The notes beneath the pieces are model-generated. The model saw only the letters and a list, made by a program, of their open reading frames with translations. It made no database searches and was not told where the DNA came from. This document shows, in pieces, positions 2,115-47,099 of a stretch of 56,046 bases of DNA (position 1 is the first letter of the stretch; each line of letters begins with the position of its first letter). Both the position numbers and the translations under genes were made by a program. The stretch covers positions 1-56,046 of the forward strand of contig JACPHR010000007.1 of the NCBI GenBank assembly GCA_016188455.1. Direction: 5' to 3'. This DNA comes from Candidatus Tayloriibacteriota bacterium (GTDB lineage: Bacteria; Patescibacteriota; Minisyncoccia; Phycocordibacterales; SIBU01).

Positions 2115-2918
2115 GTGAACACTACAATAGCGATATTCCGCCACGGCCATACGGACTACCGACAGGGCAACAGGTCCGTCTCAATTGAGATGGCGAACGA
2201 CCTGTCAATGCCTTCGGCGGATGGCGAGCCGCCCGAGCACTCATTCCTGAACGCCGTAAATGACCTGAAAAATAAGGCCAAGGCATTATCTTACTATATC
2301 AACCCCGGTAAGAGAACCGTCATCCACTCGTCAGGAACGGGACGCACCCTTAGCACGGCGAAAATCATTCAGCTGGAACTGGCGAGTGAGGGACTAGCAT
2401 TCGAGAGGCACGATGGTCCTTGGGCGATTCACCACGAGCCTCTATTGGATGAAGTCGGCTGCTTTGACTGGAAGCTGTTCCTGGCTCTGGTCAACGGCGG
2501 CTACACGGAGTTTGGAGACGATATGTGGGTCATTGACCCTCAAGACTCCAACCCGAAAGGCCTCGGCGCCGACGACTACTTCTACTTTGATTGCTTGCAC
2601 AAACTGCCAGGGGCCGTCCTCAAAAAATGGCCGGAGGGTTTCGCCAGTCGCGTCAAATCTTTTGAGACGTCGGCGCACTGCCTTGAGCGTCTCAAGGAGG
2701 CGATCAGAAACGCCGCGCGACAGCCGGAGCGCCAGTGGATTTTCGTGACTCACGGGGGGTTAGCGGCTTTTCCCGTCAGGGTCTTTACCAACCATCAAGT
2801 GAAGGAACTGGAGCGCGGGTCGTGGGCGCTCCTTGACGCCACAGATGGCAAAGCGACCATCCGCCGATTGTGTGAACAGCCGTTCGGCAACAAGGAAGCA
2901 AACCTGCTTGAACTTTAG
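2115..2918 (+). CDS. Histidine phosphatase superfamily protein
   Basis: Member of the RHG (phosphoglycerate mutase-like) superfamily, which transfers phosphate through a histidine. The catalytic FRHGHTD is at residues 8-14 and the second active-site histidine is in FVTHGGL, about 47 residues before the C-terminus. The GTG at 2115 is chosen because a strong GGAGGTG ribosome site sits 4 bases upstream and the catalytic motif then falls at the expected N-terminal position; the longer open frame overlaps zwf. Length is 267 residues with an insert-rich middle region, so the substrate cannot be assigned. It is divergent from zwf, with a TTGACA box at 2046-2051, and ends at a clear terminator. Confidence 0.85.
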   Translation: MNTTIAIFRHGHTDYRQGNRSVSIEMANDLSMPSADGEPPEHSFLNAVNDLKNKAKALSYYINPGKRTVIHSSGTGRTLSTAKIIQLELASEGLAFERHDGPWAIHHEPLLDEVGCFDWKLFLALVNGGYTEFGDDMWVIDPQDSNPKGLGADDYFYFDCLHKLPGAVLKKWPEGFASRVKSFETSAHCLERLKEAIRNAARQPERQWIFVTHGGLAAFPVRVFTNHQVKELERGSWALLDATDGKATIRRLCEQPFGNKEANLLEL

Positions 2919-2932
2919 CAAAGTTTGCCTCA

Positions 2933-2962
2933 AAGCGGCCCGGACAACTGGCCGCTTTTTTA
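2933..2962 (+). terminator. Rho-independent terminator of the histidine phosphatase gene
   Basis: The arms AAGCGGCC (2933-2940) and GGCCGCTT (2950-2957) enclose a 9-nt loop and are followed directly by a T-run. It overlaps the stop codon of the convergent kinase-like gene. Confidence 0.85.
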
Positions 2963-4012
2963 TTGCCAGCCGAAAACCTGACGCTTTAGAATTTTTTTAA
3001 CCGCCGCAAAGAAGCTTTGCTCGGCGGCGGCCTCATTGTCTGGATGAAAGCCCGGATTACAGTAAAGAAGCGCCAGCAAGCCGAGGGGCAAGCAAAGAGT
3101 TTGTCTGATTTCCTTGTCACCCGCCTTAGCCGCGTAGCTTTCAATAAATAATTCTCCCAGTTTCTTAAAATAAGAATTGCCCGTGCTGTGATAAAACCAA
3201 AGGTACTGGGCGACAAAATAGCCGACGTCAATGCCCGGTTCGCCGTAAGGAATGCGGGAAAAATCAATGACCGAAACCTTGCCCTTGGGCTGGCAAAAAA
3301 TATTGGCGCCCCAAAAATCGCCGTGCAGCGGCCGCAAGCGGTCCGCGCGACCTTGCCAACGGTAGATAAGGTCAAGAATCAAACCGATATAATCGGCGTG
3401 CGAGGAGCGTGGTAATAATGGATGCTTGTCGCCGAAATCGGCTAGAAACAAAAAAAAGTAGCCGGGGTAGGCGAGGAGCGACTGCAGGCTGTCGTTATAA
3501 AGAGTTTTTAGAGCGGCGGCGGAAAAGTCGGGGCGCGGACCGGCGTGAATGCGGACAAGAAGGTCAGCAATGGCTTTAATTTCTTTTTTGTCTTTTTCAT
3601 CCGGCGTTTTTTTGGCTTTTCTGCCGGCAAGCGATGCCCAGTAACTGTCGCCCAAATCATCGGCAAACTTTTGTAAATGATAGAGGGAAGCGCGCTCGTC
3701 AAGGTCAGGCAAAATAATCGTCTCGCCTTCTCGCCCGACCATCACGCCGATAGGCTCCGGCGAAAGAGCCGCTCTTTTGGCCATGCCGTGGCTGACCGCG
3801 TAAGAAAACAGATGCCGCTCCGCAATCTCAAAACCGGCCTCACCGTCGCGCTTCATCTTCTTCAGAAAAAACCGCTCGCCGCCTTGGGCGGTCAGCTGAA
3901 AGGCCTCCGACTGAAAACCGCCCTTCATCGCCTTGGCGCTCACAAAGAGAATGGGTCGGCCCAAACGTTTTGAAACAGCCTCGGAGAGTTTTTTCAATTC
4001 ATGGCTTTCCAT
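2960..4012 (-). CDS. APH-fold phosphotransferase family protein
   Basis: Protein-kinase-like enzyme of the aminoglycoside/choline kinase type. The catalytic loop LHGDFWGANIF (His-Gly-Asp...Asn) is near residue 229, and the metal-binding strand VSVIDFSRIPYGEPGIDVGY follows about 20 residues later. The N-terminal lobe has a plausible nucleotide-binding lysine in FFLKKM. At 350 residues it is full length. The family covers small-molecule and sugar or choline kinases as well as resistance enzymes, so the name does not imply antibiotic resistance. It is monocistronic, convergent with the histidine phosphatase gene. Confidence 0.8.
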   Translation of the reverse strand: MESHELKKLSEAVSKRLGRPILFVSAKAMKGGFQSEAFQLTAQGGERFFLKKMKRDGEAGFEIAERHLFSYAVSHGMAKRAALSPEPIGVMVGREGETIILPDLDERASLYHLQKFADDLGDSYWASLAGRKAKKTPDEKDKKEIKAIADLLVRIHAGPRPDFSAAALKTLYNDSLQSLLAYPGYFFLFLADFGDKHPLLPRSSHADYIGLILDLIYRWQGRADRLRPLHGDFWGANIFCQPKGKVSVIDFSRIPYGEPGIDVGYFVAQYLWFYHSTGNSYFKKLGELFIESYAAKAGDKEIRQTLCLPLGLLALLYCNPGFHPDNEAAAEQSFFAAVKKILKRQVFGWQ

Positions 4013-4074: not shown

Positions 4075-4157
4075 GTAGCAGATCCGCCAGCTGGCAGATC
4101 GCTACGGGGCAGGCTTCCACCACATCCCCGTCCTTTACTCCAGAGGAGGGCCCTCCT
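4075..4157. repeat. Intergenic palindromes
   Basis: A 31-bp near-perfect palindrome (4075-4105, arms GTAGC.GATC.GCC) and a perfect 14-bp palindrome AGGAGGGCCCTCCT (4144-4157) lie in the gene-free stretch between the kinase gene and the toxin-antitoxin pair. No gene or promoter is evident here. Confidence 0.6.
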
Positions 4158-4235
4158 TTGGAGGACAAACTTCTGTGGCAATTTTGGTGCCGATGATGCG
4201 AAATTATCCATCAAACGAAAACTGTCATTGTGATG

Positions 4236-4925
4236 TCAATCAAGCCCCAAAAGTTCGCGGGCGATTTTTTTAGTTTCTTCTTGAAAGAATTTTTTGATAT
4301 TACCCCAACTGGCGTTAAAAAAAAGTGTGGGCATCGGGTCGTCTTCGGCATCAACAAAATACACCAAACTTTTAAGAATGTGATTTGGATTTTGTTTTAC
4401 GCGATAGTGCCGCTCTGCCCGCCGTATGCTCTCTTTAAGCGGTTGGATGTTTTTACTAATCCAGTACAAATCTACAAAATCGCGTTTTTTACCGCGCTGG
4501 CTAATCGCCGCGATTTTCATGGCGGCGATATCGGGAGGAGTTAAAATAGAAACCGAACCGATTTTGAGCACCGATTCCGCGGGATCAAAAAATGGGTAAG
4601 CAATCAGACTCATTTTCGCCCCCAACAATCTTCCGTAAACCGTTCCCCGGTCAAGCGAGTCTGTTTCCCATTTCCCAGTCGTACTTAATTGTTCCACTAT
4701 TTTCTTTTCGTCAAAAGATTTTTCCGGCGTAAAAAAATCCAGGTCAACGGATTGGCGATGACCGGCTTGGAGTGCCAGCGCCGTGCCACCCGCCAAATAC
4801 CATCCGCCCGACGAAAAAAACGGCGTTATAATACAACGTTTAAAAGCCTCACGCGCCACAGTGGGAAGCGCTTCAAGACGCAACTGTTCCAAAACGCCGG
4901 CATTTATGTGAGAAGAAGCGACCAT
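4236..4925 (-). CDS. AbiEii/AbiGii-type nucleotidyltransferase (candidate toxin)
   Basis: Member of the nucleotidyltransferase AbiEii toxin family. The signature LAGGTALALQAGHRQSVDLDFF (residues ~44-65, read in two halves) contains the GG[ST] and DxD metal-binding motifs, and a conserved KRDFVDLYW motif follows in the second half. Family members transfer nucleotides to RNA or tRNA and cause reversible growth arrest. At 229 residues it is complete. It overlaps by 22 nt the end of an upstream small gene (4904-5167), the usual arrangement in which the antitoxin is translated first. Confidence 0.8.
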   Translation of the reverse strand: MVASSHINAGVLEQLRLEALPTVAREAFKRCIITPFFSSGGWYLAGGTALALQAGHRQSVDLDFFTPEKSFDEKKIVEQLSTTGKWETDSLDRGTVYGRLLGAKMSLIAYPFFDPAESVLKIGSVSILTPPDIAAMKIAAISQRGKKRDFVDLYWISKNIQPLKESIRRAERHYRVKQNPNHILKSLVYFVDAEDDPMPTLFFNASWGNIKKFFQEETKKIARELLGLD

Positions 4926-5167
4926 AAAGCTTTTGACTTATCGTGTACCTGACTTCGAGGTAATTCCATCACTCGCTTGATTTCGCTTTTCGGGTAATAC
5001 CGGAAAAGCCAACGCACCTCCTCCGTATTGCCAAAATCAAGAATGCGCTCGATGATGTACACCGCGTGCTTTTCGGGGTCTATGGTTTTCGGGTCCACGT
5101 CCCAAAAAAGCGACTGGCGAAAAACCATCACAGGCAGTTTTTTGGTCTGCTGTTTTTTAACTTTCAT
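4904..5167 (-). CDS. Small antitoxin-like protein (DUF6922-like)
   Basis: An 87-residue protein with a basic N-terminus, an FWDVDPKTIDPEKHAVYIIERILDFG-type segment (shortened here to its core DVDPKTIDPEKHA) and a helical C-terminus. Proteins of this shape commonly precede AbiEii-type nucleotidyltransferases. The overlap with the toxin gene suggests translational coupling and an antitoxin role. Assignment is by context and family resemblance only; no DNA-binding motif can be proven by eye. Confidence 0.6.
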   Translation of the reverse strand: MKVKKQQTKKLPVMVFRQSLFWDVDPKTIDPEKHAVYIIERILDFGNTEEVRWLFRYYPKSEIKRVMELPRSQVHDKSKALWSLLLT

Positions 5168-5186
5168 CGCTCTATACTAGCACATT

Positions 5187-5627
5187 TTATGTCTTTTTCC
5201 CAGCCGATTTTTCCACAAACTCTGCTATGTATTTCATATATTCTACATATTGCCCGATACCGCCTGAAATATCATCCATCACAAGTTTTCTTTGAATTTT
5301 CTCATATCCGTGCACTAAGCGATTGCGCAAGCCAACCGAACCTGAAATCTTTTCCGCAAGATCAACCGGCAGGACGCCGTGTTTGCCTAAAATACGAAAC
5401 GTTCCCTCATAATCATCCGACGGTTCAAGTTTAGCGCGAGTCATAATATGCGTATTGATATCAATCGCCGCATCGGCAATAAGTTGAAACAGCCGCTCCA
5501 CAATAAATATCTCCGGGTCATGAAGTTCCATCTTGCCCTGCCTATATTTTTCAAGATATGGCATAAGCTTGCGAAGATACAAACTCATTGCCGCCAGCTT
5601 GCTTTTAATCACATCCTCATTGGGCAT
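5187..5627 (-). CDS. hepT: HepT-like HEPN ribonuclease toxin
   Basis: Compact all-helical HEPN protein of 146 residues with the catalytic Rx4-6H motif in GLRNRLVHGYE (near residue 100). HepT family members are RNases that are neutralised by a cognate MNT nucleotidyltransferase, which modifies the tyrosine of the RxxxxHxY motif. The 11-bp overlap with the upstream mntA (5617-5627) supports an MNT-HepT operon. A second, diverged pair is at 30318-31182. Confidence 0.85.
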   Translation of the reverse strand: MPNEDVIKSKLAAMSLYLRKLMPYLEKYRQGKMELHDPEIFIVERLFQLIADAAIDINTHIMTRAKLEPSDDYEGTFRILGKHGVLPVDLAEKISGSVGLRNRLVHGYEKIQRKLVMDDISGGIGQYVEYMKYIAEFVEKSAGKKT

Positions 5628-13183: not shown

Positions 13184-14332
13184 TTACTCGGTATACAATT
13201 CCGTTTTGCCGTCCTTAACAATCTTGAGAACATGGCCAGATGCTCGGTCGCCAGTCGCTTCAATGGTAACCTGGCCGGAGGCCCCATCCCAATCCTTAAT
13301 AGTCCGCGACCACGCCGCCAGTTTCTGCCCGTCAAGACCGACCGCGGCAATACCCTCTTTCACCAAGTACAAAGCGTCATACTCGGTTTGGCCATACGCT
13401 TGGTAAGGCAATTCAGCATTATACTTTTGCTTATAACTCTCCAAGAGATGCTGGAACTTGGGGTTGTTCGGGTCAACGCCGAACTCCGCTCCAAACGCTC
13501 CTTCAAAAAGAGCTTTGTTTTCACTGACCGTTTTTGGATCGCCTACTACTATATCGGCGACCAGAAGCGGCGGATTCCATTTAAGCTCCTTTACCTGTTT
13601 GGCGATTCGAACGGAGGCGGCCGGCGCTTGGGTATCCACAAACAAAGCGTCCGGTTTTTGAGATTGCAGTTTAGCGATTGAAGACCGGAAGTCGCTCGCG
13701 CCGGTCGGAAACTCTTCCTTGACGGTTTTGCCGCCGAGTTCGGAAAATCTGGCGTCAAAAGCCTTAAAAATGCCGAGCGGGTAATCAAGCGATTCTTGGA
13801 TGAAAGCCACGGTCCGCCAGCCTTTTTTGTAGGCCAGTTCGGCCAGCACCCTGCCCTGCGAAGCGTCACTGGGGTAATCGCGGAAAAAATACGGACTTCG
13901 GCCCGTCAAATCGGGACTGCTGGCGCCGGGAGAAAAGAGCGCGACTTTGCCCGCTTCGGCAATCGGCACCGCCGCCAACGACTCGCTGCTGCAAATGCCG
14001 CCGATAATAATTTGAACCTTGTCCACATTGACAAGCTTCTGAGCGGCGTTGGCTCCGTCTTTGCCGTTACATTTGCCGTCTTCCACTACCAGGACAAGGT
14101 CTCGCCCGCCAACGCCTCCCGACTTATTTATTTCATCCACCGCGAGCTGATAGACATTTAGAGCCGGCTCGCCGTACACCGCCCCGTCACCGGTCAGGGG
14201 CAAAATTACTCCGAGGCTGATCGGCCCGGCGACTTCCGGCGCTTTGGCGGTGCGGGCAAAAAAGAACCCGCCGACAATAATGACGGCCAGAAGGATGACC
14301 CAACTAAGAATCTTTGGCTTGTTGTCTTCCAT
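13184..14332 (-). CDS. livK: Branched-chain amino acid type periplasmic-binding protein, membrane-anchored
   Basis: Type I periplasmic-binding (LivJ/LivK, peripla_BP_6) protein of 382 residues. It begins with an uncleaved-looking transmembrane segment (residues ~10-27) and no lipobox Cys, so it is probably tethered to the cytoplasmic membrane. The fold markers are ISLGVILPLTGDGAVYGEP, the conserved Cys pair of GKCNG and GGICSS, and SPYFFRDYPSDASQG. Family ligands include branched-chain amino acids, amides and urea; the ligand cannot be read from sequence alone. It is the first gene of the liv operon. Confidence 0.87.
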   Translation of the reverse strand: MEDNKPKILSWVILLAVIIVGGFFFARTAKAPEVAGPISLGVILPLTGDGAVYGEPALNVYQLAVDEINKSGGVGGRDLVLVVEDGKCNGKDGANAAQKLVNVDKVQIIIGGICSSESLAAVPIAEAGKVALFSPGASSPDLTGRSPYFFRDYPSDASQGRVLAELAYKKGWRTVAFIQESLDYPLGIFKAFDARFSELGGKTVKEEFPTGASDFRSSIAKLQSQKPDALFVDTQAPAASVRIAKQVKELKWNPPLLVADIVVGDPKTVSENKALFEGAFGAEFGVDPNNPKFQHLLESYKQKYNAELPYQAYGQTEYDALYLVKEGIAAVGLDGQKLAAWSRTIKDWDGASGQVTIEATGDRASGHVLKIVKDGKTELYTE

Positions 14333-14420
14333 AGTTTATAAATTTTATATCTAATAAAAGGACCTTTTTGTTAATACCCCTATGCTATACCCCATAAAAA
14401 ATTTTGCAAGCGGGCCAATG

Positions 14421-14452
14421 AAAACCGCCCCGACGTACATCGAGGCGGTTTT
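14421..14452. terminator. Bidirectional-looking terminator between DUF378 and liv operon
   Basis: The arms AAAACCGCC (14421-14429) and GGCGGTTTT (14444-14452) enclose a 14-nt loop, with A and T tracts on both sides, so it could work on either strand. It ends the DUF378 transcript and insulates the liv operon. Confidence 0.75.
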
Positions 14453-14473
14453 ATTGAACCTGACTATAGCAAA

Positions 14474-14689
14474 CTACATGCCCGTACCGGCGCTGCAATT
14501 CTTGCAGTTCTTCTTGTGGGTTACAATTTCAGCCACCGCCGACAGGCCGACGAGCGCGTAAACAGCCGTGGCGAGAGTTGACCCCGCCCCCAAAAGGCTC
14601 TCAACCAAATTATAGCCGAGCGCGACCAAACCCCAGTTTAATCCTCCGATGATAAGGAGAATAAACGCAACCATGTGTAGTCCCTTCAT
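14474..14689 (-). CDS. DUF378 small membrane protein
   Basis: 71 residues with two transmembrane helices. The first contains the DUF378 hallmark LIIGGLNWGLVAL; the second follows a short loop with the family motif LLGAGSTLATAVYALVGLSA. The short tail has two cysteines (KKNCKNC). Family function is unknown. It is a single gene between msrB and the liv operon, ending at a terminator. Confidence 0.85.
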   Translation of the reverse strand: MKGLHMVAFILLIIGGLNWGLVALGYNLVESLLGAGSTLATAVYALVGLSAVAEIVTHKKNCKNCSAGTGM

Positions 14690-14845
14690 AAAATATATTT
14701 AGAGCTTCCGCTCTTACATTATATAAAAACCTCCGACCTAGGCCTATTAAAGCTTGGTTATATTATACAAGACTTCCGCAAGTCGCGGAATACTGAAAAG
14801 TGGATAACTAAATGCCCTCATGTACGGCATCGGATGTCGGATAAC

Positions 14846-15247
14846 TTAGGGTTTTGGCCCCTCTTCAAGGTCAAGACAGACCGAATTGAGGCAATAGCGC
14901 TTGCCGGTTGCCGTTGGACCGTCGGGAAACACGTGCCCGAGATGCGAGTTACAACGGGAGCAAACAATTTCGGTGCGGCGCGTACCATATTCATTGTCGG
15001 AAATTTCCCGAACTGAGCCGGGAAGGGCTTGGTCAAAAGAAGGCCAGCCAGTGCCGGAGTCAAACTTGGCATCCGAGGAGAAAAGCGCCTGGCCGCAGGC
15101 GGCACAATTATAGGTGCCGGCTTTTTTCTCGTGCAAAAGTTTGCCGCTAAACGGCGCCTCGGTCCCTTTGCCGCGTAAAACCGCGTACTGCTCCGGCGTC
15201 AGTTTATTCTTCCACTCCTCCTCGTTTTTCGCCATTTCCTTTTTCAT
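14846..15247 (-). CDS. msrB: Peptide-methionine (R)-S-oxide reductase MsrB
   Basis: Repairs R-methionine sulfoxide in proteins. It has two zinc-binding CxxC pairs (CAAC and CSRC), the SGTGWPSF substrate segment and the catalytic Cys in RYCLNSVCLDL near the C-terminus. Length is 133 residues, typical of the free-standing enzyme. It lies 24 bp downstream of msrA on the same strand, so the two stereospecific repair enzymes are probably co-transcribed. Confidence 0.93.
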   Translation of the reverse strand: MKKEMAKNEEEWKNKLTPEQYAVLRGKGTEAPFSGKLLHEKKAGTYNCAACGQALFSSDAKFDSGTGWPSFDQALPGSVREISDNEYGTRRTEIVCSRCNSHLGHVFPDGPTATGKRYCLNSVCLDLEEGPKP

Positions 15248-15271
15248 ACTGTAATCTTTAATCTCTTAACT

Positions 15272-15835
15272 TCAATCTGCTTTTGTCTCCAAAAGCTCGA
15301 CAAACTGTTTCTGCACCTTCTCCAGCTTGGGGTTGATGACCACTTCACAGTAGGGATTGCCCGGATGGGCGGCGAAATAATCACGGTGGTAATTTTCCGC
15401 TTCGTAAAAAACGTCTAGCGGCACCAGTTCGGTTACCACGGACGCGCCGTGTTTATTTGAGATGTTGATTTCTTTGATAAAATCTTCAGCCGTCTTTTTC
15501 TGCTCCGGCGTGGTGTAAAAAATGACCGAGCGGTATTGTGTGCCTACATCGTTCCCTTGCCTATTTTGGGTTGTCGGGTCGTGGCTGCCGAAAAAGACCG
15601 TCAACAAATCCTTGTATGTTGTAAGTTGTGGGTTGTAAGTTATTCGTACTACTTCGGCGTGTCCCGTCCCGCCGCCGCTTACTTCCTCATAGGTGGGATT
15701 TTTGGTCGTGCCGCCGGCGTAGCCGGGTAAAACCGAACTCACTCCGCGGAGCATCTTAAACACCGCCTCGGTGCACCAAAAACAGCCTCCACCGAAGACT
15801 GCTATTTCACTAACATCTCTTTTCTCTTTAACCAT
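15272..15835 (-). CDS. msrA: Peptide-methionine (S)-S-oxide reductase MsrA
   Basis: Repairs S-methionine sulfoxide. The catalytic FGGGCFWCTEAVF motif is near residue 14; GYAGG, GTGHAEVV and the DPTTQNRQGNDVGTQYRS segment complete the active site. ATG 15835 (MVKEKRD) is chosen because the family core begins shortly after; the longer frame adds 24 residues without homology. It heads the msrA-msrB operon. Confidence 0.93.
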   Translation of the reverse strand: MVKEKRDVSEIAVFGGGCFWCTEAVFKMLRGVSSVLPGYAGGTTKNPTYEEVSGGGTGHAEVVRITYNPQLTTYKDLLTVFFGSHDPTTQNRQGNDVGTQYRSVIFYTTPEQKKTAEDFIKEINISNKHGASVVTELVPLDVFYEAENYHRDYFAAHPGNPYCEVVINPKLEKVQKQFVELLETKAD

Positions 15836-41911: not shown

Positions 41912-43378
41912 TTATTGGCCGCCGAAAGCTCTCCCGATGGCAAACAACGTCGCCTCACCGCCAGCCGGAGCCATGAATTGCAGACCGAGCGGCAGTTGCC
42001 TGCCGGCCACTGCCGCAAAACCCGACGGCACCGAAATGGCCGGCAAGCTCGCGATATTGGCGCTGACCGTAAAAATGTCGCCGAGATACATGGCTAAAGG
42101 GTCGCTTGACTTGTCGCCGAGCTTAAAAGCGGGTGTGGGCGTGGTAGGAGTGGCGACAACGTCGACCGTCTCAAAGACCCTCGCAAAATCCGCCGTGATC
42201 ACTTCGCGGGCGTTGACCGCCTTATTGTAATAGGCGTCGTAATAACCCGAGGAAAGCACGTGCGTGCCTAAAATAATCCGCCGGCGGACTTCGCGGCCAA
42301 AACCCGCGCCTCGCGACAGCCGGTAATCCTCCAGAAGATTTTCCCCGGCCTTGTGAAAGCCGTATTTCACGCCGTCAAAACGGGCCAGGTTGGCGGAAGC
42401 TTCCGCGGGCATGATGATGTAATAGGCGGCCAGAGCGTAACCGACGGTCGGCAGAGAAATATCTTGAATCTGATGCCCGAGCTTTTTCAAAGTCGCCAGA
42501 GATTGATTAAAATTGGCCAAAACTTCCTTATCCACCCCTTGGCTTTCGGTAAAAGCTCTCGGCACGCCAACAACTAAACTTTTGACTTTTGACTTTTGAA
42601 TTTTGACTTCGGTTGAGGTGCTGTCCATCGAGTCGCGGACTTTGACGCAGTTAAAAATAATTGCCGCGTCCTCCACGGTCTTGGCAATCGGCCCAATTTG
42701 GTCAAGGGATGACGCCATGGCCATCAGGCCGTATCGGGAGACCGCGCCGTAGGTTGGTTTCAAGCCCACCACCCCGCAAAAGCTCGCCGGCTGTCTGATG
42801 GAGCCGCCAGTGTCGGAGCCGAGCGCGGCAAGCGCCATATCCGAGGCAACCGCGGTGGCGGAGCCGCCGGAGGAGCCGCCGGGAACGCGCGACGGGTCGT
42901 GAGGATTTTTCGTCGCGCCATAGGCGGAATTTTCGGTGGAACTGCCCATAGCGAACTCGTCCATGTTTGTCCGACCAAGAAACACCGCTCCGGCTTCTTT
43001 CAGTTTGGCGATAACCGTCGCGTCGTAACTCGCTATGTAATTTTCCAAAATTTTTGAAGCTGAACCGGCGCGGCGGCCTTTAATCAAAATGTTGTCTTTG
43101 ACGGCAAGCGGGATGCCAACTAAGTTGGAAAGTCCGCCCTCACCGAGCGGACTCTGGTCCGTTCGGGCGGGTTTTGAAGTTGGAAAGTTTTGAAGTTTTT
43201 TGTCCGCCTCAGCCGCTTGCTCAAGCACGTCGTCATACACTTCAAGATAGGCGTTGAGTTCTTTATTTTTCTTCGCAATTTCCTCAAGATACGTCTCTGC
43301 CAGCTCCACGGCGGAAAAATCGCCTTTTATCAAAGCTTCATGGGCCTTTTTTATGGTGAGAGTTTTTAAATCAATCAT
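41912..43378 (-). CDS. gatA: Glutamyl-tRNA(Gln) amidotransferase subunit A
   Basis: Amidase-signature enzyme that releases ammonia from glutamine to convert Glu-tRNA(Gln) or Asp-tRNA(Asn). The Ser-cisSer-Lys triad is seen in IPLAVKDNI (Lys), GSDTGGSIRQPASFCG (both Ser) and the PGGSSGGSATAVA loop. 488 residues with two repeat-encoded inserts: one of ~25 residues before LVGIPLAVKDNI (PARTDQSPLGEGGLSN core), and a KIQKSKVKS stretch from a CAAAAGT repeat. gatC lies upstream; gatB is not in the window. Confidence 0.94.
   Translation of the reverse strand: MIDLKTLTIKKAHEALIKGDFSAVELAETYLEEIAKKNKELNAYLEVYDDVLEQAAEADKKLQNFPTSKPARTDQSPLGEGGLSNLVGIPLAVKDNILIKGRRAGSASKILENYIASYDATVIAKLKEAGAVFLGRTNMDEFAMGSSTENSAYGATKNPHDPSRVPGGSSGGSATAVASDMALAALGSDTGGSIRQPASFCGVVGLKPTYGAVSRYGLMAMASSLDQIGPIAKTVEDAAIIFNCVKVRDSMDSTSTEVKIQKSKVKSLVVGVPRAFTESQGVDKEVLANFNQSLATLKKLGHQIQDISLPTVGYALAAYYIIMPAEASANLARFDGVKYGFHKAGENLLEDYRLSRGAGFGREVRRRIILGTHVLSSGYYDAYYNKAVNAREVITADFARVFETVDVVATPTTPTPAFKLGDKSSDPLAMYLGDIFTVSANIASLPAISVPSGFAAVAGRQLPLGLQFMAPAGGEATLFAIGRAFGGQ
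43123..43200. repeat. Repeat insertion inside gatA
   Basis: Contains the inverted arms AGTCCGC/GCGGACT with a 9-nt loop (43131-43153), a second GGTCCG piece, and the direct repeats AAGTTGGAAAGT (43122 and 43178 area). It encodes the extra ~25 residues between helix and catalytic lysine in GatA. Confidence 0.7.
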
Positions 43379-43476: not shown

Positions 43477-43761
43477 TTAAAGTATTTTCTTGACGCGAAT
43501 ATAATTCCCTTCCCGCTTCGGCGCGGCGGAAAGCAGAGCTTCGGTATGAATGCCGCTCTCGTGCGGATTGGCGTCCTCCCGCATGACATTGCGAAGCAAA
43601 CCGGCCTTTTTTTCGGCAGACCCGTTGCCGGAAACTTTTTGCACTTGTTCCACATAACCCAAAATGGCATCCATATCTTTGCGCAAAGCCTCTTTCTCCT
43701 CCGGTGGCAAAGCGATGCGGCTCAACGCCGCCAAGTTTTCAATTTCTTTGAGACTAATCAT
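43477..43761 (-). CDS. gatC: Glutamyl-tRNA(Gln) amidotransferase subunit C
   Basis: 94 residues (MISLKEIENLAALSRIALPPEE...), the small subunit that stabilises GatA. ATG 43761 is the family start; the longer frame would add nine residues with no homology. The start codon overlaps the TGA of the upstream DGR reverse transcriptase as ATGA, so translation of gatC may be coupled to the retroelement. gatA follows after a 98-bp AT-rich gap. Confidence 0.9.
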   Translation of the reverse strand: MISLKEIENLAALSRIALPPEEKEALRKDMDAILGYVEQVQKVSGNGSAEKKAGLLRNVMREDANPHESGIHTEALLSAAPKREGNYIRVKKIL

Positions 43762-44774
43762 GGCTCTATGGTAACATCTCGCCCACATATTTTCAAAATC
43801 CGATTTTGTAGCCTAAAACCACTGCAGTGCGATAGAACTCCATGGTAAGATGCCAAAGATTTCAAACTGACCAGCCTAATAATCCGCCGCGCCGTTCTTG
43901 TCCGCAACACCTTATAATGCGGCAGAGAAACATAACCTAAAAAATCAACGCCTTGATGTAATTTTCTAATTTCAATTTTCCTCGGGTGCAGTTCTAAATA
44001 CAGTTTTTCTCCTAGAAATCGCTGAAGTTCCAAAATATATACTTCAAGATGATGGTGTGAGTCATCAAGAATCACGATATCATCGCAATATCTTATATAA
44101 TGTTTCGTCTTGAGTCTGTGTTTCGCAAATTGGTCAAGTTCGTTGAGATATATGTTTGCAAAGAGCTGGCTCGTTACGTTGCCAAGTGGCAAACCCTTAC
44201 TGTCCGAGACCTGAAACGAAGCAACAATTTTCTTGATAAGTTCAAATAGTTTCAAGTCGGAAACCTTTCTAGCCACAAGGAAAAGCAATACTTTATGGTC
44301 AACTGAATCAAAAAACTTTTTGATGTCGCATTTGAGCGCAAAACCTTGCTTCCTAGAGTTTTTCGTGACTTTTCGTGCAAATGATTCAAAACGCGTAACA
44401 GCCCGATGCGTGCCTTTGCCATTGCGCGAAGAGTAAGAATCATGTATAAATCCGTCATCAAACAGAAAATAAAGAGAACTATAAACGGCTTGATACAAAA
44501 CCCTGTCGCGGACACTCGCTTTGTGAATCAGGCGGAGTTTTGGGTCTTGAACGCAAAACGCTGTATATGGGTCGGGCTTCCAAGCGCCGTAAACCAGCTC
44601 ACGATGAAGAGCAAACAAATTTTCTTCCAAATGCAGTTCAAACTCGGCCACGTCCCGCTTGGAACGTTTGCCTCTGCGAAACTCCTTCCACGCCACCAAT
44701 AAATTTTCAAGAGAAATTACATCACAAAAATTAACTTTATGACGCCCCCCGACAGCACTTTGCCGATTATCCAT
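43758..44774 (-). CDS. DGR-type reverse transcriptase
   Basis: 338 residues. Motifs: the first catalytic Asp in ALKCDIKKFFDSVDH (D150), the DGR/retron-group motif LPLGNVTSQLFANIYLNELD (residues 195-214) and the active-site YCDD box in HYIRYCDDIVIL (229-232). It copies the template-repeat RNA into mutated cDNA for transfer into the variable repeat of the target gene. Gene order on this strand is target, TR, [avd antisense], RT. The start codon overlaps the 5' end of the opposite-strand avd by 36 bp; the TGA stop overlaps the gatC ATG. No upstream ribosome site is seen. Confidence 0.92.
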   Translation of the reverse strand: MDNRQSAVGGRHKVNFCDVISLENLLVAWKEFRRGKRSKRDVAEFELHLEENLFALHRELVYGAWKPDPYTAFCVQDPKLRLIHKASVRDRVLYQAVYSSLYFLFDDGFIHDSYSSRNGKGTHRAVTRFESFARKVTKNSRKQGFALKCDIKKFFDSVDHKVLLFLVARKVSDLKLFELIKKIVASFQVSDSKGLPLGNVTSQLFANIYLNELDQFAKHRLKTKHYIRYCDDIVILDDSHHHLEVYILELQRFLGEKLYLELHPRKIEIRKLHQGVDFLGYVSLPHYKVLRTRTARRIIRLVSLKSLASYHGVLSHCSGFRLQNRILKICGRDVTIEP

Positions 44775-45104
44775 GCGATTAGAATACTACACAAAGACCT
44801 GTATTGCATCGCAGGAAAACTCTCAAAGCGAGACAAGCTCGGTCTCCATGCTCGTGTAGAGACTTCTTGTATAGAAATTCTCGGACTAGCCGTAGAAGCC
44901 GCTTTCAAACCAAAAACTCAAAAAATCGGGTCTCTTGAATCTTTGCGAATCAAAGTGGAAATTCTTAAACATCTCATTCGCACCGAGCACGAGCTCGAAA
45001 TCATAGATGTTAAAACTTATCTTCGTCTTTCCGAAAAACTGGTTAAAATTTCAAAAATGACAAATGGTTGGATCAATTTTGTCACGCAAAAAGGAGCAGT
45101 ATAG
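44739..45104 (+). CDS. avd: Avd-like four-helix-bundle accessory protein of the DGR
   Basis: 121 residues, all helical: HAIRILHKDLYCIAGKLSKR, then RVETSCIEILGLAVEAAFKP and two C-terminal helices. This matches Avd/S23-like proteins, which bind the DGR reverse transcriptase and template RNA and are needed for retrohoming. It points opposite to the RT, TR and target gene, overlaps the RT start by 36 bp, and its stop lies only 22 bp from the TR, so its transcript would run antisense through the TR. The opposite orientation is unusual. Confidence 0.8.
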   Translation: MTPPDSTLPIIHAIRILHKDLYCIAGKLSKRDKLGLHARVETSCIEILGLAVEAAFKPKTQKIGSLESLRIKVEILKHLIRTEHELEIIDVKTYLRLSEKLVKISKMTNGWINFVTQKGAV

Positions 45105-45126
45105 CTCCTTTGGTTGCGAGAAATTT

Positions 45127-45240
45127 CTCGGCGAAACCGCAAGTTGTCGTTTGCGTTGCTCGGATTCCAGTAGTTGACGTTGACATTGCCATCGTTATTG
45201 AGGTTCACGCTCGGCACATTGCCGTCAACATTGCGGGAAC
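45127..45240 (-). repeat. DGR template repeat (TR)
   Basis: 114 bp aligned without gaps to the variable repeat at 45498-45611. Read on the minus strand it is rich in AAC/AAT (translation SVNLNNDGNVNVNYWNPSNA), giving maximal effect of adenine mutation. The 3' end (CTTGCGGTTTCGCCGAG) is identical in both repeats and GC-rich, the position of the initiation-of-mutagenic-homology site. A TATACT box on the minus strand (45322-45327) could start the TR transcript. Confidence 0.93.
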
Positions 45241-45420
45241 GTACTGCCCGGTTTCTTCCTGTTCACCAGATACCATTTTCACAGTATCTTGAGTTATGCA
45301 CCCCCGAGGTATATCCGGCATAGTATAAAATCGGGCAGGCAATTTCTATAAATGACCAATCGTTATTCCGCGTTGCGGAACCGATTGCACAGTCACAGCT
45401 TTATTATATAAAAAGAAAAT

Positions 45421-45457
45421 CCCTCTTCGCAAATCTTTTGAAGATTTTTGAAGAGGG
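45421..45457 (-). terminator. Terminator/hairpin downstream of the DGR target gene
   Basis: The stem CCCTCTTC/GAAGAGGG has an inner AAATCT/AGATTT helix, followed on the minus strand by ATTTTCTTTTT. It lies 30 bp past the target stop codon. In other DGRs a hairpin just after the variable repeat promotes target recognition, so it may serve both roles. Confidence 0.75.
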
Positions 45458-45486
45458 ATGCAAGGGAACAAGGCACAAGGTCAAAG

Positions 45487-46266
45487 CTAAACGATTGCTC
45501 GGCGAAACCGCAAGCTGCCGCCTGCGTCGCCCGGATCCCAGCCGCGGACGCCGACATCGCCATCGCCATCGAGGCCCACGCTCGGCACAACGCCGCCAAC
45601 ATCGCGGGAACCGGGACAAAGAGTAATAACTGTTCGGTCCAGATGCTCTTTTCGCTCTAGGAGATAGACATCCCCGTCAACCAAGCGCTCCGGCAGTGTT
45701 GTGGTAATCCAACCTCGGTCCCAGGTGTCTTGACTTGAAAGGTTTTTCTTCTGCTCTTCATCAAAACCATCAGGGGCCTCGGAAACATCTGCGACCCAGA
45801 TACCGTAAGTACCACTACGGATATGTTGGGGAATGCCGGCATTAAGATTATCCGTCCACTGCCACCATTTATCGGCACAGCGTTTTTTGTAAACGCTTGC
45901 GATGCGCTGCGGCCGATTTGAAACATCGGCGTGCATAAGGATGAGGCGGGCCGGATACGCGTGAGGTGTAGGAATTTCCGTCTCGCCCAGAGAGCATGTA
46001 ATGCCGTACCAGTCACGGTAGTATTTCTGCCAGCGCTCGGCTTCCGGGTGTGGAATGATTATCCGCTTGGGAAGCAGGAGCTCTAAAGCAGCCGCCACCG
46101 CCTCGGTGATGACCGAAGATTGCCCGACAAATTGCTGGGCATAAGCGGGCGGCAATCGCCTCAAAAAAGGCGTAACGCCGCGCAGAGCGGCAGAGTTGAT
46201 TTCTTGGATTTGTCCCGGATCAATGCCGAGAGCCGGTTGTTTTTCTAAGACGCTCGCATTTTTCAT
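45487..46266 (-). CDS. DGR target protein with C-terminal variable region
   Basis: 259 residues from ATG 46266 (AAAGGAAG ribosome site upstream). The last ~38 residues are the variable region, ending GSLRFRRAIV, four residues past the IMH. The C-terminal half (GTYGIWVADVSEAPDGFDEE, LVDGDVYLLERKEHLDRTVI) is compatible with the C-type-lectin/formylglycine-enzyme fold used by DGR targets, although that fold is inferred. The N-terminal half is helical, with LPPAYAQQFVGQSSVITEAV. No signal peptide or membrane helix is present, so it may act inside the cell or in a complex. Confidence 0.85.
   Translation of the reverse strand: MKNASVLEKQPALGIDPGQIQEINSAALRGVTPFLRRLPPAYAQQFVGQSSVITEAVAAALELLLPKRIIIPHPEAERWQKYYRDWYGITCSLGETEIPTPHAYPARLILMHADVSNRPQRIASVYKKRCADKWWQWTDNLNAGIPQHIRSGTYGIWVADVSEAPDGFDEEQKKNLSSQDTWDRGWITTTLPERLVDGDVYLLERKEHLDRTVITLCPGSRDVGGVVPSVGLDGDGDVGVRGWDPGDAGGSLRFRRAIV
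45498..45611 (-). repeat. DGR variable repeat (VR)
   Basis: Differs from the TR at 23 of 114 positions. 22 are adenine in the TR coding strand (20 A to G, 1 A to C, 1 A to T) and one is T to G. 16 codons change the residue, mostly Asn to Asp, Gly, Val, Ser or Arg. The first and last blocks are identical. Confidence 0.95.
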
Positions 46267-46324: not shown

Positions 46325-46375
46325 GCCGGGGAATTTTGTCCTGAACATCTTATGTGAAGGACAAAATTCCCCGGC
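46325..46375. other. Long hairpin between divergent genes
   Basis: Perfect 18-bp arms (GCCGGGGAATTTTGTCCT and its complement) around a 15-nt loop, between the DGR target promoter region and the second PaaX/Cas2-like gene. It has no T-run. Confidence 0.65.
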
Positions 46376-46445
46376 CAACCTTTGTTTGCAAGGTACTCCA
46401 ATAACTAGAACAAGTTTAACGCAATACTATTATTTTGTCAATATA

Positions 46446-46481
46446 CATACATTATTCACTATAGTTTATAATACATGTATG
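46446..46481. promoter_or_regulatory. Palindromic operator/promoter of the second PaaX/Cas2-like gene
   Basis: The imperfect palindrome with arms CATACAT/ATGTATG and a CACTATAG core contains TATAAT (46467-46472), 7 nt before ATG 46479. The same layout occurs at 8673-8716, so autoregulation and leaderless translation are likely in both. Confidence 0.7.
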
Positions 46482-47048
46482 GGAATAATGGAAGAAAAAT
46501 CAAGACAGAGGACTCAAAAGCACGTCATCCAAAAAGCCATCCTCAAAATTGTGGCGGCGGCTGGCGTTTTAAGCATAGCTCTTGTCGCTCCAAACGCTTT
46601 GCAGACATTACGCGCGTTCGGCTTTGACCCGCGCAAACGCCGCAACGAAAGCGTCAATAACTCCAGAATACGACTGGTCAAAAACGGCTTGCTGGAATAT
46701 ACCAACAAAGGTCTACTGAGGCTGACGCCTAAGGGCGAGGCGAAACTCCGGCAACTGGAACTCTATGAATACAAAATCAAAAAACCGAAACGGTGGGACA
46801 AAAAGTGGAGAGTGCTTATCTTTGACATTAAGGAAGAAAGGCGGTCTACACGGGACAAAATACGCCGCACCTTGGTTGCCATCGGTTTCCTGCGCTTGCA
46901 GGACAGCGTATGGGTCTATCCCTACGACTGCGAAGACCTCATCACCTTGCTCAAAGCCGATTTCAAAATCGGCAAAGACGTTTTGTACATAATCGCTGAC
47001 TCCATAGAAAACGATTCCTGGCTCAAAAAGCAATTCAACCTGTCTTGA
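46479..47048 (+). CDS. PaaX/Cas2-like winged-helix regulator (second copy)
   Basis: 189 residues, closely similar to 8712-9290 over the whole length (shared KKPKRWDKKWRVLIFDI and DSVWVYPYDCEDL), with a winged-helix-like N-terminus and a Cas2/PaaX-type C-terminal domain. ATG 46479 gives an N-terminus MGIMEEK parallel to the MGKMEQE of the other copy. Not linked to CRISPR. It lies next to the DGR, but functional connection is not shown; flanked by palindromes at 46446 and 47066. Confidence 0.8.
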   Translation: MGIMEEKSRQRTQKHVIQKAILKIVAAAGVLSIALVAPNALQTLRAFGFDPRKRRNESVNNSRIRLVKNGLLEYTNKGLLRLTPKGEAKLRQLELYEYKIKKPKRWDKKWRVLIFDIKEERRSTRDKIRRTLVAIGFLRLQDSVWVYPYDCEDLITLLKADFKIGKDVLYIIADSIENDSWLKKQFNLS

Positions 47049-47065
47049 GCCATCTTTACGGTTAT

Positions 47066-47099
47066 ACACGCATTATTCACTATAGTGAATAATGCGTGT
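47066..47099. repeat. Perfect 34-bp palindrome downstream of the second PaaX/Cas2-like gene
   Basis: ACACGCATTATTCACTATAG plus TGAATAATGCGTGT is its own reverse complement. The core CACTATAGTG matches the downstream palindrome of the first copy at 9357-9394. Confidence 0.9.

Follow-up and report, generated by a model that had tools for sequence, protein, structure and literature searches.

The window analysed here, the whole 56,046-nucleotide stretch of contig JACPHR010000007.1 (assembly GCA_016188455.1) from a Candidatus Tayloriibacteriota bacterium, carries a complete diversity-generating retroelement (DGR), and all of its components, the adenine signature, the layout and the RNA structure were seen at the locus. 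The target gene (45487..46266, −), an open reading frame (ORF) of 259 aa whose C-terminal ~40 residues form the variable region, contains at its 3' end the variable repeat (VR) of 118 bp (45494..45611, −). The template repeat (TR), also 118 bp (45123..45240, −), was located in a non-coding stretch 253 bp from VR, the offset of the two repeats being 371 bp, and together they were the top repeat pair of the region. A structured RNA leader lies directly 5' of TR (45234..45414, −), and beyond TR follow the avd gene (44739..45104, +; 121 aa) and the gene of the DGR reverse transcriptase (RT; 43758..44774, −; 338 aa). The TGA stop of RT overlaps the ATG start (ATGA) of gatC, an ORF (43477..43761, −) directly downstream of RT that belongs with gatA (41912-43378) to a housekeeping operon.

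The alignment of TR with VR over 118 bp had no gaps and contained 24 mismatches, 23 of which fell on adenines of TR (20 A>G, 2 A>C and 1 A>T, besides one T>G). With 35 adenines among the 118 positions, this bias corresponds to a hypergeometric p=1e-14, and a VR within the 3' end of the target ORF accompanied by a nearby non-coding TR is the arrangement of a DGR. The first-pass annotation had described a complete DGR with TR, VR, RT and an Avd-like protein, in which the repeats aligned over 114 bp with 23 mismatches, 22 of them at adenines, changing 16 residues. All of these counts and coordinates were reproduced (45127-45240 against 45498-45611; 20 A>G, 1 A>C, 1 A>T and one T>G), the 4-bp extension adding one A>C and a 17th changed residue, and the identification was confirmed by the adenine-specific mismatches and by the family matches of RT and Avd. 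A lack of adenine bias, named there for other strains as evidence that would speak against a DGR, was not seen in 67 related loci, all of which were adenine-biased as well. No second VR for the window TR was found in the 893-kb genome, where the next match had E=1.1.

Comparison of the RT with protein families, a check proposed at the first pass, gave matches to RVT_1 (2.7e-22) and phrog_1423 (1e-98). Its best relative of solved structure was 8ub7 (E=5e-43), which we take to be the RT of a Bordetella phage DGR, and the YCDD and LGNVTSQ motifs aligned to it. RTs of the DGR type have a catalytic YxDD and carry [IVL]GxxxSQ instead of QGxxxSP. The active site of the window RT, which a degraded element would have lost, was intact, with YCDD and with LGNVTSQ at the QGxxxSP position.

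The genome assembly (893 kb, 98% complete) holds three complete DGRs including the window element, where a single one had been described before. The two further DGRs each possess a separate set of TR, VR, target, Avd and RT: one on contig C30 (RT 14104-15072, Avd 15065-15421 on the opposite strand; 22 of 22 TR/VR mismatches at A) and one on contig C21 (RT 4458-5444, Avd 4098-4436 on the opposite strand; 22 of 23 mismatches at A). For comparison, 80 RT relatives from the Candidate Phyla Radiation (CPR) and 73 loci on viral contigs were collected. These 80 best relatives all came from records of the metagenome-assembled type, with named lineages belonging to CPR and a few labelled only "bacterium", and VRs were compared with one genome per species. 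In a tree of 83 RTs, the three of this genome grouped closely with those of loci L020 and L051, as (C21,(W14,(L051,(L020,C30)))), where W14 is the window RT. A shared chromosomal position was considered as a sign of orthology and rejected, because DGRs are found at gatC and rpsB in distant CPR genomes too (L033, L023) and the RTs involved do not cluster together; the nusG position alone (C30, L020) may be shared, with weak support. Judged by the named lineages of its nearest relatives, the RT may belong to the CPR-restricted clade 2. That CPR bacteria carry DGRs is already known from the account of clade 2 in PMC8144416, and the window element resembles what that account gives: cellular DGRs restricted to CPR, adenine-biased TR/VR pairs and targets without recognisable domains (Roux 2021). 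In the passages searched of the main text of the clade 2 description, no mention of an antisense Avd or an RNA leader was found.

Profile matches identified the 121-aa protein as the Avd accessory protein of a DGR (PF22296 bAvd, 1.7e-10, above the curated cut-off; phrog_3206 "Avd protein of DGR", 5.8e-17), and its match to NF033474 reached 53 bits, under the cut-off of 80. The avd gene runs antisense to RT, TR and target; it overlaps RT head-to-head at the 5' ends of the two genes, and its stop codon is 19 bp from TR. The first-pass annotation had rightly placed an RT and an Avd-like gene alongside the repeats without mentioning the opposite strand, and had not recognised the layout, which proved to be the rule in the clade. 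An Avd was found by profile in 78 of the 83 loci (our own three included), in all 78 lying between TR and RT in antisense orientation to the latter, with the stop typically ~20 bp from TR. Four of the five loci where it was not found are contig ends, and the fifth is L042. The same antisense layout was present on five viral contigs with CPR-type RTs (L122-126), and in the 34 other viral loci with a detectable Avd, the gene was on the TR strand upstream of TR.

The leader is ~160 nt long and contains a stem near its start followed by a 12-bp long-range helix that encloses two hairpins; the 3' strand of this helix ends just before TR in both subclades of the relatives. Between the target terminator and TR, the relatives share a TATAAT-like box and the motifs GGCTGTGAAATCGGTC...GATAACGATTTGCC, GAAACTGCTTGCC... 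and CGGTGATACGGATGAA...GGCA, and the shared motifs end right at TR. Covariation was computed on alignments A4 and A5. In subclade 1 (20 sequences), a four-helix structure had 90.6% of cells paired compared with 72.9% in shuffles and at most 49% in slid versions, and subclade 2, with the same topology, had 98.2% of cells paired, figures that are inflated because the alignments tested had informed the structures. Two-sided changes occurred in 24 of 31 pairs in subclade 1, a result reached by 0 of 500 shuffles, and in 19 of 22 pairs in subclade 2. A covariance model served as an independent check. It scored the window leader, a seed sequence, at 138 bits (E=3e-28), and found exactly three sites in the genome, which were the leaders of the three DGRs, all in the seed. 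Loci outside the seed were also matched at the expected place, namely L025 (140 bits), L033 (120), L045 (106) and L024 (61), as well as L066, L071, L053 and L081. Applied to 297 genomes of the order, the model led to a further 25 loci; an RT match was present at 22 of them, Avd at two of the remaining three, and neither at the last. Among 58 viral loci it matched only L126 and L122, both of CPR type, and no match was obtained in the 53 viral loci of other types. An Rfam search of 44900-45700 gave nothing near the gathering score. Over the 160 nt 5' of TR, folding stability reached a mean z of −2.8 in one CPR subclade and −2.2 in the other, compared with −1.0 in phage loci. The most likely role of the leader is to recruit RT-Avd, to mark where copying ends on the 5' side, or both.

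Promoter and terminator candidates flank this RNA. A promoter-like site (45403..45432, −; TTGCGA-18 nt-TATAAT, 10 of 12 consensus matches) precedes the leader, and relatives keep a TATAAT-like box at the same place. After the target stop, a hairpin followed by TTTTCTTTTT (45419..45459, −) is, from its sequence, the likely target terminator; a near copy follows a DGR-target remnant in the sister genome G002. Just 3' of TR is another hairpin, AAAGGAGC(TATACT)GCTCCTTT followed by TT (45090..45111, −), which holds the Avd stop codon. Hairpins scoring at least 10 were present after TR in 62% of 68 loci; the figure was 2.4% for shuffles, 3% for mid-avd and 0% for RT. Across loci these post-TR hairpins had differing stem sequences and usually a T-rich tail. 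The one in the window can be taken as the 3' terminus of the template RNA, a terminus that the convergent avd transcript may share, and it may have a recruiting role like that of the BPP-1 spacer.

TR/VR pairs were detectable in 65 of the 80 related RT loci, with mismatches mainly at adenines. Pooled over 67 other CPR pairs, the spectrum was 56% A>G, 25% A>T and 19% A>C. A>C made up 23% where the next template base was A, against 1% for C, 2% for G and 6% for T, and the corresponding values in phage DGRs were 11%, 8%, 0% and 21%. Codon position was tried as the source of this effect and rejected, as the contrast between A and C as next base persisted separately at codon position 1 (23% vs 2%) and position 2 (31% vs 1%). 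As read from the aligned pairs, the CPR spectrum is context-dependent, with A>C almost solely before another A. It is a signature and gives no measured error rate, because VRs reflect selection as well as mutation. The A>G share of the window (20 of 23) was the highest of the 68 loci, with a nominal p=0.002 against the pooled 56%. An excess peculiar to the window element was rejected; the share is instead a clade tendency, because its distribution across the 68 loci is continuous and C misincorporation is the commonest in BPP-1 too (59% in E. coli; PMC12875486). In BPP-1 tested in E. coli, A>C is raised at adenines before C, with G misincorporation of 26.8% in NAC (PMC12875486); the context preference of the CPR clade, with A>C at 1% before C, is the reverse.

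Much of the machinery resembles that of BPP-1 (bRT, Avd, Mtd), including a related RT, an Avd of the same family, adenine mutagenesis between TR and VR, and a C-terminal VR in the target. However, avd of BPP-1 is in the sense orientation 5' of TR, and a structured spacer follows TR on its 3' side, ahead of RT (PMC12875486), whereas in the window avd runs antisense on the 3' side of TR, and the structured RNA precedes TR as a leader; the locus does not have the BPP-1-type architecture. Another BPP-1-type feature is a hairpin or cruciform with a GRNA tetraloop 4-34 bp after VR (PMC3240598). No GRNA-loop hairpin was found within ~35 bp of the window VR, and the nearest strong hairpin, which starts ~34 nt past the end of VR, carries CAA as its inner loop and is followed by a T-tail. 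The IMG/VR phage DGRs (L127-L194) share the machinery and the adenine bias but differ in having Avd, where found, on the TR strand upstream of TR.

From these features we infer the transcription units, the binding of the leader by protein, the lectin-like fold of the target, the surface position of the variable residues and present activity. The promoter at 45432-45403, between the target terminator and TR, would produce a short non-coding template RNA of ~300 nt, comprising the leader, TR and the hairpin after it. The avd gene would be transcribed convergently towards this RNA, and RT would be transcribed further downstream. RT-Avd would bind the template RNA through the leader, which would take the part played in BPP-1 by the 3' spacer and the avd mRNA tail, and copy the TR RNA while misincorporating opposite template adenines, mainly C (read as A>G). 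The complementary DNA would then replace VR in the target gene, so that ~16 surface positions of a small binding protein could be rewritten.

Other explanations were weighed against this mechanism. That TR and VR are an ordinary duplicate diverged by A-to-G editing or drift, without any retroelement, would agree with A>G making up 20 of the 24 changes, but its probability is negligible: the pair adjoins a DGR RT and Avd, the changes are limited to the adenines of one copy, and 67 other loci repeat the pattern, in which A>T and A>C also occur. A DGR that was formerly active and is now inactive, with a frozen VR, is quite improbable as well. DGRs do decay in the lineage, as the genome G002 of the same genus retains just RT C-terminal remnants and a target-like ORF, yet RT, Avd and target of the window are all open, the RT catalytic motifs are intact, and TR is not eroded, with one non-adenine mismatch in 118 bp. 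The leader might alternatively be a cis-regulatory RNA, such as an attenuator or a riboswitch-like element, that controls expression of TR and RT from outside the functional template RNA. Its position 5' of the transcribed unit and after a promoter-like site is typical of regulatory leaders; nevertheless, the 12-bp helix ends right at the start of TR in both subclades, no alternative terminator hairpin separates the leader from TR, and the next coding gene on the same strand, RT, begins ~350-490 bp past TR, which makes this role improbable.

The likeliest of the alternatives is that no separate template RNA exists and that TR and antisense avd are read through into RT, with the structured stretch on the 3' side, formed by the post-TR hairpin and antisense avd, corresponding to the BPP-1 spacer. 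Over the 130-140 nt that follow TR, stability indeed exceeded that of shuffles (mean z −2.2 over 68 loci; −2.9, −1.8 and −1.7 by group), and in BPP-1 it is the spacer 3' of TR that recruits bRT-Avd (PMC12875486). But this stability is due to the single hairpin adjoining TR, with z of −0.4 in mid-avd; the stems followed by T-rich tails look like terminators; and the strong synonymous constraint on avd that an antisense RNA might impose was little seen except at the ends of the gene. We therefore regard read-through as unlikely, although not negligible. Some observations weigh against the separate, leader-bearing template RNA and the proposed diversification of a binding protein. The post-TR hairpin of the window is a weak intrinsic terminator, its stem being followed by few Ts, and the terminator scan did not call it; the Foldseek search with the target model gave no match at E<=0.001; and one locus found by the RNA model, L223, has neither RT nor Avd. 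L223 (G210 contig C10 55593-55959) comprises two adjacent matches and could be an orphan or degenerate template RNA or a false positive.

Taken as a whole, we consider with good confidence that the element is a complete and probably functional DGR of a Patescibacteria-specific clade, with a separate template RNA carrying a structured leader and with its activity presumed. More tentatively, and with rather less than an even chance in our judgement, the Patescibacteria DGRs may represent a second mechanistic class of mutagenic retrohoming, in which the template RNA would be transcribed separately, RT-Avd would recognise a 5' leader and not a 3' spacer, Avd would be on the opposite strand, and A>C would arise only before A. 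The clade-wide antisense Avd and the conserved folded RNA before the template may be new, their priority being unverified: no description of an antisense Avd or a 5' leader was found in the open papers searched, the key non-open papers being outside the search.

The target protein had no sequence match in Pfam, PHROG, NCBIfam or PDB. Homologous targets adjoin DGR RTs in other CPR genomes and share the motif "RDxxEADEExKNxSA...ERLLxELxYFxETxKHLDxxNxTLCSGSRxxxGxVPxVxW...LRxR". The fold prediction proposed at the first pass yielded a confident model of the C-terminal domain (predicted local distance difference test, pLDDT, 86.9; predicted template modelling score, pTM, 0.86) without a significant Foldseek match, and the function of the target could not be assigned by family or fold, as nothing significant came from either search. 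C-type lectins and proteins like formylglycine-generating enzyme (FGE) recur among the non-significant Foldseek matches. The domain probably has a divergent C-type-lectin-like fold, because other DGR targets have such a fold according to the account in PMC8144416. Upstream of the target, a 24-bp inverted repeat with a 3-nt loop and 92% complementarity (46325-46375) lies between a promoter-like TTGACA-17-TAAACT (46441-46413, −) and the target start, and would form a strong hairpin in the 5' untranslated region of the target mRNA. The target gene of the C30 DGR (L107 4286-5057) is split by a frameshift into overlapping ORFs of 130 aa and 151 aa, which may reflect an assembly error, decay or a programmed frameshift. 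In one CPR relative, L053, a single TR is accompanied by two VRs (2873-3001 and 4091-4169).

In G002, no DGR occupies the site of the window element, where 16 bp separate gatC from ligA, and a remnant DGR lies elsewhere between ribosomal protein genes (contig C12, locus L120 ~2450-3610), consisting of a target-like ORF, a terminator hairpin, the start of a leader and an RT C-terminal fragment with stops. Because of this empty site and the remnant elsewhere, the element is seen to come and go on the scale of a genus. Close to a contig end (G000 contig C18 232-414, L106), a region matched Avd weakly (E=0.01) and may be a fourth DGR that is cut off, or a relative of Avd. Next to the window DGR, a PaaX/Cas2-like regulator gene (46479-47048, +; PaaX_M 1.5e-20) is flanked by near-identical palindromes (46442-46478 and 47063-47099; ATTATTCACTATAGT...), which are probably operator sites, and no homologue of this gene was found in the ligA-gatC interval of the sister genomes G001 and G002. 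Genes downstream of RT were co-directional in 54 of 78 CPR loci, and CPR DGRs are often directly upstream of translation genes that run in the same direction, named by eye as gatCA, nusG, rpsB, hisS and rplY (from L020, L023, L033, L028, L049, L085, L060, C21, C30 and the window).

Recognition of the template RNA by RT-Avd is known chiefly from one phage element. In a large CPR clade the arrangement differs and is backed by strong covariation, so that what DGRs require of their RNA can be tested directly outside BPP-1. The covariance model finds CPR DGRs independently of protein sequences, and the context-dependent spectrum offers a second RT to set beside that of BPP-1 for the mechanism of adenine misreading. 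For the bacterium itself, the presence of three DGRs in a 0.9-Mb genome suggests that diversified binding proteins matter to the host.

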